Assembly (NCBI GenBank): GCA_016873215.1
Contig: VGXU01000007.1
Coordinates: 1-64,000, forward strand
Length of the DNA stretch: 64,000 bases
Reading direction: 5' to 3'
DNA from: Planctomycetota bacterium
GTDB taxonomy: Bacteria > Planctomycetota > Phycisphaerae > Sedimentisphaerales > Anaerohalosphaeraceae
The translations under genes and the position numbers were made by a program. Positions 2-8,941 of this stretch are shown piece after piece; within the stretch, counting starts at the first letter, position 1, and the number at the start of each line of letters is the position of its first letter. The notes beneath the pieces were generated by a model that saw nothing but the letters and a program-made list of their open reading frames with translations, was not told the DNA's origin and did not search any database.

Positions 2-250
2 CTTTACCGCCATAAAACATCCGGCGACCTGTTCGCCATCGAAACCGACGACCGGGGCTGTATCGTTTCATCCTGCGGCCCACTGTTGTGCGACAATCTC
101 GACCCCAGGGCATTGGACTACGATGATTATTGGAATGCCGAACTGTCCGCCAAACTGGCCGATTTCGACCGGATCACCAAAGACGACTATCTCGAACTGC
201 TCCGTAAAAATGGTTTCTTTCCACAGATCACCCAGCGTCATTTATTTTAA
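2..250 (+). CDS. C-terminal part of an unknown protein (runs off the left edge)
   Basis: An open frame enters from the left edge and ends with TAA at 248-250, giving 82 visible residues. It has protein-like composition: an acidic Asp/Tyr-rich tail with a short CGPLLCD segment and a final helix rich in Asp, Leu and Lys. I do not recognise the family. The stop lies 13 bases before the start of the nuclease-like gene at 264, so the two are probably co-transcribed and belong to the same island. An ATG-initiated reading of the overlapping frame from 123 is rejected, because this frame is the better coding candidate and the downstream gene has its own ribosome binding site. Confidence 0.6.
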   Translation, partial: LYRHKTSGDLFAIETDDRGCIVSSCGPLLCDNLDPRALDYDDYWNAELSAKLADFDRITKDDYLELLRKNGFFPQITQRHLF

Positions 251-263
251 TGGAGGGTTGAAG

Positions 264-1505
264 TTGCGTAATATATTTGACCAATATGACCAACAAGAAA
301 ATAAACTAACTCATGCCCTTATGTCCACCCTTGACCATGAACCTAACCTCATAAGACCATTTTTGCGGTTTCTCAAGATTAGCAGCATTCCACCCCTTAA
401 ATTCATTGAAATCGGAATCCAGGGTCTTCCAGGACAGGAACAGTTACTAAATCAGGAGAATCAGGGCAGTGTGCCGGATGCCTATTTCTGCGACAAAGAA
501 TCATGGGCGGTCATTATTGAGTCTAAAGTACAGGCGGGTATTTCCAATAAACAATTAATACGACATAAACAGAAAGCCATAAACTATGGCTACATTAATA
601 GTGTCGTGGTCGTGATTGCAGTTAATCCTCCTGCGATACAGTTATCAGAAGTGATTTATGTTACTTGGAAATCGGTATATAAATGGTTTGTCGCAAAAAC
701 CTCAGAATCACCTTGGGCTGGGTATTTTGTTGATTATATGGAAATTTACGAATCAAAAATGTTGGCACAAAATTATAATATAAAAGGAACGCTGACTATG
801 TTCTCAGGATTTCATTTTACAAAGGATGCTCCTTATACCTATCGGGAAGGAAAGCGTTTAATTAAAGTATTAGGCCAGGAATTTCGAACCAACAAACGAT
901 TAGTGGATGGTCTCGGAATCGATCCGGAACGTGAAGGCCGACCGGCAATAACTCAGGAGGAAAATGGAGGCGTCTGGGATTTCATTTATCTCAAGAAGGC
1001 TGCATCAAAAAACTTTACTTCGTATCCGCATGCTACAATCGGAATCCGCCCAACAAATGTGTGTGTGGCAATTACTATTCCAAATGCAATAAAAGGTGGT
1101 GTTAAAACGAAACTCAAGAATAAGCGTATAGATAGTTTTTATGCCTTATTAGAAAAAATTGAACGTAACCTTCATACGTCGATTGGAAATGTGCCTGATG
1201 CGAAACCTCTTATATATCTTGATCAGAAGTATTTTAAATCACAGCGTTCGCAAGCACGTACAGACGGAATTATAAAGGTTGATTTGCGCACATTAGTAAA
1301 TAAAGCTGATAATGGCCTTAAGCATCAGCCAATGTGGACAGAAGCTATTTATAATCTTTTGACAAATAAAAAAACAAATATGCAGTTCGGTGTCGAGGTT
1401 GAAATTCCATTTTCTGCACCATGTATGAAGTCTGAAAAAGCAATTGATGTTATGGTAGATGCCTGGATAGCATTGAAACCAATAATTGAATTTATTATGG
1501 ACTGA
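264..1505 (+). CDS. PD-(D/E)XK nuclease superfamily protein
   Basis: The 413-residue protein has the core of a PD-(D/E)XK nuclease fold. An N-terminal ENKLT helix motif lies near residues 13-17, Pro-Asp at 71-72, and the Glu-Ser-Lys (ExK) triad at 86-88 within a hydrophobic strand. D72, E86 and K88 are the expected metal and catalytic residues. The rest (about 120-413) has no recognised domain. Such proteins in accessory regions are often defence or DNA-repair nucleases, but the substrate cannot be told. I chose TTG at 264 because GGAGGG at 252-257 sits six bases before it; an upstream ATG at 123 would overlap the preceding gene. The gene is clearly more AT-rich than the chromosome to its right, consistent with island origin. 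Confidence 0.7.
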   Translation: MRNIFDQYDQQENKLTHALMSTLDHEPNLIRPFLRFLKISSIPPLKFIEIGIQGLPGQEQLLNQENQGSVPDAYFCDKESWAVIIESKVQAGISNKQLIRHKQKAINYGYINSVVVVIAVNPPAIQLSEVIYVTWKSVYKWFVAKTSESPWAGYFVDYMEIYESKMLAQNYNIKGTLTMFSGFHFTKDAPYTYREGKRLIKVLGQEFRTNKRLVDGLGIDPEREGRPAITQEENGGVWDFIYLKKAASKNFTSYPHATIGIRPTNVCVAITIPNAIKGGVKTKLKNKRIDSFYALLEKIERNLHTSIGNVPDAKPLIYLDQKYFKSQRSQARTDGIIKVDLRTLVNKADNGLKHQPMWTEAIYNLLTNKKTNMQFGVEVEIPFSAPCMKSEKAIDVMVDAWIALKPIIEFIMD

Positions 1506-1569
1506 TTCATGGGCCGGAGTTACCCGCTAAAACCTAACAGCTAATAGCCGCTCTTCTGCGTATAAAAAA

Positions 1570-1634
1570 GCCGCCTGCAGGTGAGAGTAAGAAGTCAGGT
1601 GACTTCCTTTCGGGGTCGGACAACCACAGGCGGC
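1570..1634 (-). terminator. Multi-hairpin element ending in a T-run, downstream of the HTH gene
   Basis: An 8-bp outer stem pairs 1570-1577 with 1627-1634. Inside it is a perfect 6-bp hairpin (GAAGTC/GACTTC, 1591-1606) and a CC-GAAA-GG tetraloop motif. On the minus strand the outer stem is followed by six T residues (complement of 1564-1569), so it can act as the intrinsic terminator of the HTH gene. It is far more elaborate than an ordinary terminator and may be a structured RNA of the island. Confidence 0.5.
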
Positions 1635-1700
1635 AGAAGAAGGAGCTTTTATTATGCCCTCATTATACTTCTTCCCTGCTGTAAGTCAATTGCTCTGGTA

Positions 1701-1907: not shown

Positions 1908-1960
1908 AATTGATCTCCTGTGAATAGTAGGCCCCCGTTTTTCATTATAGAGGCACTTTT

Positions 1961-2059
1961 GTAACTTTCCTTGTAACTTTATGCTTTATTTTGTGTGACA
2001 GCGGGATATAATAAGATTCAGATTAAGCGTAATAAGTGGTTACAGTATAAAAAGTTACA
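1961..2059. promoter_or_regulatory. Repeated GTAACTTT / GTTACA motifs upstream of the HTH gene
   Basis: Two direct copies of GTAACTTT (1961-1968 and 1973-1980) lie 12 bp apart, and two copies of GTTACA (2039-2044 and 2054-2059) lie 15 bp apart in the opposite sense. All are in the AT-rich gap between the HTH gene and the tRNA fragment. The arrangement suits binding sites for a small HTH protein or recombinase arm sites. This is inferred from repetition only. Confidence 0.35.
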
Positions 2060-2106: not shown

Positions 2107-2149
2107 ATTTCTAATCCGTAGGTCAGGAGTTCGAATCTCTTCGGGCGCG
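2107..2149 (+). other. 3' half of a tRNA-Arg(UCU): probable att site of an integrated element
   Basis: The segment has exact tRNA geometry from the anticodon loop onward: anticodon TCT (2110-2112), 3' anticodon stem (2115-2119), 5-nt variable loop (2120-2124), T-arm stems 2125-2129 and 2137-2141 around TTCGAAT, 3' acceptor strand (2142-2148) and discriminator G at 2149. The 5' half is missing: the bases before the anticodon loop cannot form the anticodon stem, and no acceptor partner is present. A break at the anticodon loop is the usual result of tyrosine-recombinase integration into a tRNA gene, so this marks the right end of an island extending leftward out of the window. Confidence 0.75.
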
Positions 2150-2206: not shown

Positions 2207-2872
2207 ATGGCACAAGAAGAACAAGTACTGGTAGTGGAGCGTAAAGTTGTGGAGCAGGTTGGCATGTTCCACGGACTTATGTTTGACGTGGGAAAATATC
2301 TGGGCCGGCTTTTTGCAGCGGGGGTGCCGCGATTTATACCGCGCTCACAGGCGGAGAAGAACCTCGACTATAAACAGCTTATTCCTTATGTGATTATGGC
2401 CTGTGACGGGAAAGTCTTCAGTTATGTTCGCGGAAAACGGGCGGGCGAAACCCGACTTGTCGGCAACCGCTCTATCGGTATCGGAGGTCATATCAATCCC
2501 GCCGACGATATGCCGCTGTTCAGCAATTTTTATGACGCCTATCGTGCCGCGGTGGAGCGGGAAGTTGCCGAAGAGGTGTCCGTGGAAACGAGTTATGCCG
2601 ACCGCGTTGTGGCGCTGCTTAATGATGATTCCAATGAAGTGGGGCAAGTACACCTCGGTATAGTTCATTATTGGAATCTGGATGAACCGAAAGTCAGCCG
2701 CAAAGAGCAGATGATAACACAAATGGCGTTTATGACGCCGGTGGAACTGCAGGCGGTCAAAGAAACGCTTGAAACGTGGTCGTCGCTGTGTTTGGCCGGT
2801 CTTGACAAAATGGCAGCATCCGTAAATGCCGGAACCGGCGTTGAAAAATCCGGACGGGATGGGATAAAATAG
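2207..2872 (+). CDS. NUDIX-fold predicted phosphoesterase (COG4112-like)
   Basis: The 221-residue protein resembles the MutT-related predicted phosphoesterase family. A central IGIGGHI segment is followed by a stretched NUDIX-like helix containing EREVAEEV, the Glu-rich metal-binding signature, and then a VHLGIVHYW strand. The loop between the two halves of the box is longer than in canonical NUDIX enzymes, so the substrate (probably a nucleoside-diphosphate derivative) is unknown. I chose ATG at 2207 over the in-frame TTG at 2171, because AGGA precedes it by a few bases and the extra residues are Gln/Lys-rich and unlike the family. It is the first chromosomal gene right of the att-like tRNA fragment. 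Confidence 0.7.
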
Positions 2873-5980: not shown

Positions 5981-6517
5981 ATGGAACCAATCACGAGCGA
6001 ACAGGAATTACAGACCCTTCTGGATGATGGCAAAATTACGCAGGAGGAATACAAAGAGCTTCTTGCGGCGATGAAAGACAAACCGCAGGCGTCACCTGTT
6101 TTGCCTGTCGGAGGAGTTATTCTGTGGGGAGAATATAAATCCAAACGTCGGATATTTGATTTGCCGCTGGTGCATATCGTTTATGGGCCTGCGATTGACC
6201 CTGCGACAGGAAAACTTCGTGTTGCTAAAGGAATTATAGCGATTGGAGGTATTGCTGTGGGCGTGGTGGCATTAGGCGGGGCGGCCTTTGGGCTTGTTGC
6301 TTTGGGGGGGCTGGCAGTAGGACTATTGGCGGCATTGGGTGGAGCGGCCATAGGAACGGGAATATCCATAGGAGGATTTGCGGTCGGAACAGCTGCCCTC
6401 GGCGGATTTGCATTCGGATATTATGCTCTTGGCGGGGCGGCATTTGGGGTTTATGATTTCGGCGGCAACACGCCGTTTGAACAGTGGCCAGAGTGGTTCA
6501 AGCGGTTCAGGCGGTGA
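5981..6517 (+). CDS. SHOCT-domain protein with Gly/Ala decapeptide repeats
   Basis: The 178-residue protein opens with the same SHOCT-like module as its neighbour (residues 1-33). A polar section (40-83) with a FDLPLVHIVYG strand follows, then about seven tandem ten-residue repeats of the form GGxAxGxxAL (residues about 88-160), and a basic tryptophan-containing tail. The repeats are uniformly hydrophobic and small, so they could form packed membrane helices or a beta-solenoid. It ends 11 bases before the convergent stop of RNase D. It is the third gene of the DUF2089 operon, 18 bases after the second. The function is unknown. Confidence 0.75.
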   Translation: MEPITSEQELQTLLDDGKITQEEYKELLAAMKDKPQASPVLPVGGVILWGEYKSKRRIFDLPLVHIVYGPAIDPATGKLRVAKGIIAIGGIAVGVVALGGAAFGLVALGGLAVGLLAALGGAAIGTGISIGGFAVGTAALGGFAFGYYALGGAAFGVYDFGGNTPFEQWPEWFKRFRR

Positions 6518-6527
6518 TAAAACGTTG

Positions 6528-7688
6528 TTACGGGTTGTTAAAAATCTCTTTTAACGGTTTTCGCAGCAGGTCCGCTTGCCAGGGGAGGATAGAATCTTCG
6601 CGGACCATTTCGTCCAGTCCCTCCGATCCTGCCCGGGCGAGTTTTCCAATTATGGCGCGAGACAAAATCAATTCCACGGAAAGATTATTTTGTTCGGCTA
6701 TTTTTTTGCACACATCCCTGATTTTTTCCACACGTTCCAGAAATTGTTTATCGGGGCGAGGTGCGCGGGAAAAAGCCTTGGTTTTAGGCCATTGAGCGGG
6801 CTTTTGTTCAAAGGCTTTTTTTATCGCTTTGCACAGGGCGGCCAGACGCTGGCCTTTACAATGCTTAATATCGCGGCATAGAGCATCGAAATCCAGTTTG
6901 GTTTGGGATTCCGCCCGGATAGCAAGAGCAACCAATCGTTCATTAAGAAAGATTCGGAATGGCGGCAGGTCGGCGTGCTGCGCCTGTTTTTCCCGCCACA
7001 GCCAAAGCTGCTTCAAAAATGCCAGTTGCCGCGGTGTCAGTCGGGAACTTCCTTTAACCCGCCAGTCTTTTTCCGGATTGAATTTTTGCGTGTGATTCAT
7101 CGCAGCCTGGACGGAACGCCGGCACATCTGTTGATGCCAGCCCGTCTGGTTTTGTCCCCGCAGTTGTTGTTCCAGTTTTTCAGCCAGTTCCAGCAGGTGG
7201 TGTGTATCCATCGCCGCATAGCGCAGCAAAGATTCCGGCAGGGGCCTTCTCGACCAGTCGGCCTTTTGACTGCTTTTGGAAATGGAAACATTCAAAACTG
7301 TCTGCAGTATTCCCGCCAGGTTTAACGACTCAATTTTCAGCAATTTCCCGGCCAGCATTGTGTCGAAAATTTCACCCTCGGGTTCAAATCCGAAGCTCAG
7401 CTTCAGCATTCGCAGGTCATAGCCGGAGTCATGAAAAATCAGGTTTTTGGTTTTCAGTTCTTTTAGAAAATCGGACAGGTCCAGCCCGGCCAGCGGGTCA
7501 ACAATATAATTATTTCCGTCAAAACTAAGCTGAATGAGACAAACCTTGGGGTAATAGTGATGAAAACTGTCGGCTTCGATGTCCACTGCGACATTAGATG
7601 CGGACGAAAGCTTCCCTGTCAGGTCGCTTAGTGCCGTCGCGTGGCTGATATAATGAAATAAGGGTTCCGCGTTCAATGTTGTACTCAT
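6528..7688 (-). CDS. rnd: Ribonuclease D
   Basis: The 386-residue protein is a DEDDy 3'-5' exoribonuclease followed by an HRDC domain. Exo I is DIEAD (D36, E38), Exo II is HDSGYD (D91), and Exo III is YAAMD (Y157, D161), giving all four acidic residues and the catalytic tyrosine. Residues about 205-290 form the HRDC helices with a PPFRIFLNERLVALA segment, and the tail is a second helical region as in E. coli RNase D. It trims the 3' ends of tRNA precursors and other structured RNAs. It is transcribed alone and converges with the SHOCT operon. Confidence 0.93.
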   Translation of the reverse strand: MSTTLNAEPLFHYISHATALSDLTGKLSSASNVAVDIEADSFHHYYPKVCLIQLSFDGNNYIVDPLAGLDLSDFLKELKTKNLIFHDSGYDLRMLKLSFGFEPEGEIFDTMLAGKLLKIESLNLAGILQTVLNVSISKSSQKADWSRRPLPESLLRYAAMDTHHLLELAEKLEQQLRGQNQTGWHQQMCRRSVQAAMNHTQKFNPEKDWRVKGSSRLTPRQLAFLKQLWLWREKQAQHADLPPFRIFLNERLVALAIRAESQTKLDFDALCRDIKHCKGQRLAALCKAIKKAFEQKPAQWPKTKAFSRAPRPDKQFLERVEKIRDVCKKIAEQNNLSVELILSRAIIGKLARAGSEGLDEMVREDSILPWQADLLRKPLKEIFNNP

Positions 7689-7795
7689 CGTAGAAACAAG
7701 TTACATATAGTATACTTATCGATCTTTATTTTGTCAAGCGGCAACGGATGGGGCGACCCTCCACATTTTCCGGAAACACAAATGATGTTGGCGGC

Positions 7796-7852: not shown

Positions 7853-8941
7853 CTATTTGACTTCCGCGTCAATCCAGCTCAGCAGTTCTTTGAGGTCCTG
7901 CATCGTGTGGTCGCCCATGTGAGCGATACGGAACGTGACGCCCTTAAGGTCGCCGTAGCCGTTGCTGATAATCACATTGTGATTGGCCTGAAGCGATTTA
8001 TTCAAGGCGCCAATGTCGATGTTGCGGGTATTCTTGACGGTTGTCAGGGTGTTGGTGCAGTATTTTTCTTCACAGAACAGGGCAAAACGGTCTTTCGCCC
8101 ATGCCCGGCAGTAATCGGCCATCTCTTTATGCCGTTTCCAGACATTTTCCATGCCTTCCTTCAACAGACGCGAAGCCTGATAATTGACGGCCACAATGTG
8201 CGGAATGGACGGCGTTGTCGGCGTATTGTCTTTTTCATTATTTTTGACAAAATCCACGAAATCAAAATAATAGCCGCGTTCTGGCACGGTTTTGGCTTTT
8301 TCAATGGCGCGTTTGCTGACTGCGGCAACCGTGAAACCCGGCGGAATGGCGAACGCTTTCTGGACTGAGGCGAAAGTGACATCCCATCCGAGCTTGTCGA
8401 AATGAATCGGCATACCCACCATGGCACTGACCGCATCTACAAATACCAGCACGTCGGGGTATTTCTTTTTGAGCATCTCACTGATTTCATAGACCGGGTT
8501 GGCCATGCCGGTACTGGTTTCGCTATAGACGATAGTGACAGCAGCGTATTTGCCGGTAGCCAGTTTCTGGTCGATCAATTCGGCGGTTGTGGGCTTGCCC
8601 CATTCCACTTTGAGAGGTTCCATATTGCGCCCGCACGACTTGATGACACTGCCCCACTTATCACTGAACGCACCGCACATACAAGCCAGCACGGTTTCAT
8701 CTTTGGAGACACAATTTCGAATACTGGCTTCCCAGATGCCCGAAGCCGACGACGTGACCAGAAAAACGTTTTGCTCGGTGAACAAGACCTGTTTCAGCAT
8801 CGCGATGGTTTCATTGTGAAGTTGAGCATATTCTTTGTTGCGGTGTCCCATCGTGGGACGGGCTAACTGTTGCAGCACCTCCGGCAGTACATGCACCGGC
8901 CCGGGGATGAACAGTTTCGGTGGGTTTTTCCAGTCAACCAT
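7853..8941 (-). CDS. Class V aminotransferase (SerC / alanine-glyoxylate type)
   Basis: The 362-residue PLP enzyme has the fold-type I landmarks of the alanine-glyoxylate / phosphoserine aminotransferase group. An N-terminal FIPGPVHV and a MGHRNKEY substrate loop are followed by TSSASG, ETSTGMANP, the PLP-ring aspartate in VDAVSA, and the Schiff-base lysine K195 in SVQKAFAIPPG. Family members move amino groups between serine or alanine and keto acids; substrate specificity cannot be read here. I chose ATG at 8941 because AAGGAG precedes it by eight bases. It lies five bases after the stop of the DUF1015 gene and shares its transcript, a neighbourhood that favours a serine or phosphoserine role. 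Confidence 0.85.
   Translation of the reverse strand: MVDWKNPPKLFIPGPVHVLPEVLQQLARPTMGHRNKEYAQLHNETIAMLKQVLFTEQNVFLVTSSASGIWEASIRNCVSKDETVLACMCGAFSDKWGSVIKSCGRNMEPLKVEWGKPTTAELIDQKLATGKYAAVTIVYSETSTGMANPVYEISEMLKKKYPDVLVFVDAVSAMVGMPIHFDKLGWDVTFASVQKAFAIPPGFTVAAVSKRAIEKAKTVPERGYYFDFVDFVKNNEKDNTPTTPSIPHIVAVNYQASRLLKEGMENVWKRHKEMADYCRAWAKDRFALFCEEKYCTNTLTTVKNTRNIDIGALNKSLQANHNVIISNGYGDLKGVTFRIAHMGDHTMQDLKELLSWIDAEVK

Follow-up and report, generated by a model that had tools for sequence, protein, structure and literature searches.

We consider it very likely (probability about 0.93) that positions 2106-2152 of the DNA analyzed here are the attR site at the right end of a prophage, which in this Planctomycetota-type bacterium is inserted in the one tRNA-Arg(UCU) gene detected. 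The window, by which we mean the whole 64,000-nucleotide stretch, corresponds to C7:1-64000, with its left edge at the start of contig C7 (base 1). At 2107-2149 lies a tRNA-Arg(UCU) 3' half that runs from the 5' anticodon stem end to the discriminator base, with the anticodon loop TTTCTAA at 2108-2114, the anticodon at 2110-2112, and the discriminator G at 2149. The 5' half is missing, given that ARAGORN reports only a tRNA-Leu in the window and nothing complete at 2107-2149. The attR core on the plus strand (2106-2152) consists of this 3' half plus three 3' flanking bases and is identical over 47 bp to positions 6239-6285 of contig C76 from the same genome. The repeat begins two bases ahead of the anticodon loop, and the loop itself (2108-2114, plus strand), which lies within the core, is the probable 7-bp crossover region. 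The identity with C76 and the ARAGORN result confirm the claim of the initial annotation that a tRNA-Arg(UCU) 3' half stands here without its 5' half. Genome-wide searches covered contigs of at least 3 kb, with shorter ones read as N, and the 39-base 3' part of the tRNA was found with up to three mismatches at two places in the 2.69-Mb genome, C7:2111-2149 and C76:6244-6282. The reversed-pattern control of this search gave 0 matches, and with only two copies present, a chance match is thus excluded. The GC content is about 35-42% directly before the scar and rises to 51-54% beyond it. In its arrangement, the scar is a textbook attR, here in a Planctomycetota-type genome.

The initial annotation had also predicted an intact tRNA-Arg(UCU) with the same end bases, and a tyrosine recombinase, beyond the left edge. 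Given that the window begins at the end of its contig, both were to be expected on another contig, and both were found on C76. The whole tRNA-Arg(UCU) occupies C76 6209-6282, and directly downstream, starting 134 bp after it, is a tyrosine recombinase gene (6416-7708, 430 amino acids). Its product scores 41.4 bits against PF00589 (cut-off, 27.1) and has a PHROG integrase match. In a four-sequence alignment, R236, R383, H405, and Y414 are invariant, and the first position of the HxxR motif (residue 380; L012 6416-7708) is Tyr in the C76 protein and one relative and His in the other two. Between the tRNA and the integrase gene lies a terminator-like perfect 13-bp inverted repeat followed by a T-run (C76 6292-6324). 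This pairing of an intact tRNA-Arg with a downstream recombinase supports the proposal that the window fragment is a scar of tyrosine-recombinase integration, with a crossover in the loop as the inferred part of that proposal. C76 (at base 8841) and C7 (at base 1) both end inside the element; comparison of these ends with the small contigs gave no joining overlap, and searches with the terminal 200 bp found no joining contig either. Because the element interior is not assembled, we infer, rather than read directly, that the two contigs carry the opposite ends of a single element.

The two ends are connected by a second, short motif. A pair of TTGTAACTTT copies at 12-bp spacing lies at window 1959-1980 on the plus strand, with a third copy of the same 10-mer, inverted, at 2051-2060 on the minus strand. 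The same pair, at the same 12-bp spacing, is located beside the integrase gene at C76 6358-6379. The exact pair occurs four times in the whole genome, on C7, C76, C74, and C70. At the level of sequence, these pairs are an independent link between the C76 and C7 ends, and they are candidate sites for integrase arm binding.

We propose that the phage attP carried a copy of the tRNA-Arg 3' half and that the C76 integrase would have recombined attP with the tRNA-Arg gene inside the 7-bp anticodon loop. At attL, the host 5' half would then have been joined to the phage 3' half to give a whole tRNA again, with the phage-supplied terminator-like hairpin behind it, and the original host 3' half would have been displaced to attR, where it would now form the window fragment. 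Excision would be driven at the adjacent arm by the excisionase-type protein encoded at 1701-1907. That the crossover took place in the loop, that the integrase binds the arms, and that excision occurs is our reading of the anatomy of the two ends. In the tRNA-Lys and tRNA-Met relatives of this element in the same genome, identity starts exactly at the anticodon loop.

One of these relatives is found on C74, whose end is formed by an attR-like site that contains a tRNA-Lys(CUU) 3' half (L036 8600-9178). Its arm block is identical over 75 bp to window 1957-2031, within a wider region of 87.6% identity over 137 bp. The last 126 bases of C74, from the tRNA-Lys anticodon loop on, recur in C106 behind an intact tRNA-Lys, and the tRNA-Lys site of C106 (L067 2709-2781) is empty and shares its right flank with C74. 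The assembly thus holds both an occupied right junction and an empty tRNA-Lys site, which is explained most simply by a mixed sampled population. A contig with the attL of the C74 tRNA-Lys element was not found. On C70 (L032 9620-10361, minus strand), arm motifs flank a tRNA-Met(CAU) 3' half on both sides in an attP-like arrangement, which adjoins a broken integrase gene and a transposase-like ORF. The intact tRNA-Met that matches C70 is on C42 (L232), and here too the identity begins exactly at the loop.

The initial annotation had assigned everything left of the scar to the element, namely, an excisionase-type helix-turn-helix (HTH) gene, an unusual hairpin, and an AT-rich nuclease-like gene. 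The first was borne out: the minus-strand gene at 1701-1907 encodes a 68-amino-acid excisionase-family HTH protein that matches Pfam HTH_17 (E = 2.3e-13), PHROG excisionase families, and TIGR01764 (50 bits; cut-off, 28.8). The hairpin and following T-run at 1562-1650, also on the minus strand, have a fold z-score of -3.49, with 0 shuffles folding equally well, and no Rfam match. We read this hairpin as probably the minus-strand terminator behind the excisionase gene. It is not private to the element, given that kin of the hairpin are found elsewhere and some of them stand without a visible prophage. The kin share a conserved stem and flank (CCACAGGCGGCAGAAGGAG), which in this genome occur at window 1545-1665, C1:65035-65141, and C74 (L036) 8771-8800; in related genomes, kin are present on G001:C328, G002:C53, and G015:C148.

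The AT-rich ORF at 264-1505 (plus strand, start codon unsettled) contains a weak PD-(D/E)XK nuclease-like stretch (PDDEXK_4, E = 0.61). It had no PADLOC or NCBIfam match and only weak Pfam matches, and a known defense protein, which we considered as a candidate, was rejected on these results. Its position left of attR and its low GC content are what suggest that it is probably cargo of the element, as the initial annotation had assigned it. The ORF at 2-250 (plus strand) is the 3' part of a gene cut by the contig end. Copies of this small protein are encoded in the same genome on C45 (L124, 2037-2516), adjoining a weak Mrr-like gene; on C74 (L036, 6760-6837), downstream of type I restriction and GmrSD/HNH-like genes; and on C11 (L125, 3398-3643).

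The first gene beyond the scar on its right side (2207-2872, plus strand) has homologues in 99 of 148 related genomes, and this distribution, together with the rise in GC content, identifies the DNA beyond attR as chromosome, with this gene as the host gene that borders attR outside the element. Gene order around it is not kept among relatives. The initial annotation had suggested a comparison with related genomes lacking the island. Two genomes of the same genus, G001 and G002, each have one intact tRNA-Arg and no fragment within three mismatches; an empty tRNA-Arg site was not found in relatives, whether queried with the tRNA 3' half or with the right-flank gene.

Two other explanations of the fragment deserve consideration. 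Several related elements are present in this genome (C74 and C70), and the interior between C76 and C7 is not assembled, so that the two contigs could carry ends that belong to two different, related elements or to a tandem array, with tRNA-Arg(UCU) as the site of both and the fragment as a second attR. We regard this as improbable, given that the readable assembly holds only two copies of the core, one per end type, and that the arm motif and its spacing are alike at both. Partial tRNA genes can also originate by other routes, and the fragment could in principle be a tRNA pseudogene in decay or a duplicated part of a tRNA gene, with integration not involved. The chance of this is, in our estimation, negligible. 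A pseudogene would not be expected to retain 47 bp without decay or to break next to the anticodon loop, and this explanation leaves aside the integrase at the intact copy, the arm motifs at both ends, the excisionase gene beside the fragment, and the single intact tRNA-Arg, without a fragment, in each of the two congeners.

The genes beyond the integrase on C76 bear on the nature of the prophage whose right end we place at 2106-2152. They comprise a convergent spanin-like gene and two further protein-coding genes that reach the contig end, and all three have relatives in G032. There, the order is portal, probable scaffold, major head, two small proteins, spanin, and a displaced tRNA-Arg 3' half, and this gene content points to our element as a possible temperate tailed phage, although its interior is not assembled. 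A search with the G032 query found no major head gene in the contigs of at least 3 kb. A P22-like portal gene (PF16510, 278 bits) is present in the genome on a small contig, C101, and could not be assigned to the C76/C7 element. Displaced tRNA-Arg(UCU) 3' halves are also seen elsewhere in the order, on G036:C54 (L128 6907-10990), G032:C23 (L126), and G047:C83 (L129). The G036 scar has genes for a methyltransferase and a DpdB-like protein close by, a situation reminiscent of the window with its nuclease-like gene. The C76 integrase had no match among 50,697 phage records, a sign of how poorly phages of this group are represented in reference collections, and the scar establishes where one prophage in such a group ends on the right.

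Relatives of the integrase were collected by searching contigs with the four-sequence alignment, and the best 80 of 120 were kept (L138-L217); these best 80 are mostly from Planctomycetota genomes. The loci considered further were those of this best-80 scan plus C76 and G036, each with at least 600 bases upstream, 72 in all. At 52 of the 72 loci, a same-strand tRNA lies upstream of the integrase, no more than 700 bases from its matched start, a count that is not fully independent given that L127 and L211 are apparently one G036 site. With tRNAs on either strand counted, 59 loci have one nearby, and these comprise 23 anticodons. On a quick tree of 74 integrases, at least 39 anticodon changes are needed over 53 labelled rows; support is weak for roughly half of its inner branches, and the number is to be taken as rough. 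The integrases of L142 and L144, which are from one genome, are 84% identical and differ in target, one being tRNA-Met and the other tRNA-Arg(CCG); beyond the tRNA end, their DNA is very similar. Between tRNA and integrase, 12 of the 59 loci contain TAACY pairs with a 12-bp spacing, and every other spacing up to 30 occurs at one locus at most.

These observations lead us to a tentative proposal, which we hold to be possible but less likely than not, that the attP of this Planctomycetota integrase family is modular. Arm blocks would be kept while the tRNA core, bounded on its right by the 3' end of the tRNA, is swapped as a cassette, and close phages, even within one genome, could thereby occupy different tRNA genes. 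The retention of arms with exchange of the core is our interpretation of a few natural pairs. Such pairs are near-minimal natural comparisons: in one genome the arms are the same and the cores differ, and in another, integrases that are 84% identical have different targets. They could reveal the integrase residues and core bases that determine which tRNA is targeted. If the modular proposal is true, sites with shared arms and different cores would permit a direct test of how an integrase changes its target.

Integrases of the lambda type use arm-type and core-type sites and are assisted by an excisionase. The element described here is similar in its paired short repeats on both arms, its excisionase-family gene by one arm, and its tyrosine integrase; the arm sites in this comparison are candidates recognized by sequence, and the integrase is one with 0 matches in the 50,697 phage records. 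The likeness to the elements in Islander is close as well, given that a tyrosine integrase lies beside a restored tRNA, a 3' fragment marks the far end, and the break is at the anticodon loop. In Islander, 3' fragments are listed for 3760 islands and anticodon-centered sites for 2083, and displaced 3' fragments and anticodon-centered sites are the common pattern in that collection (PMC4383910). Our element differs in belonging to another host group and in having its ends on two contigs, so that it is not delimited in one piece. The Islander authors, citing Williams 2002, describe frequent switching of tRNA targets in integrase evolution (PMC4383910). Our family resembles what is described there in that related integrases use different tRNA genes, and it differs in that the arms are nearly unchanged while the cores differ, with 75 identical bases beside tRNA-Arg in one case and tRNA-Lys in the other. 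The attR in the window is itself ordinary and target switching is already known, and this genome provides a new and well-resolved example.
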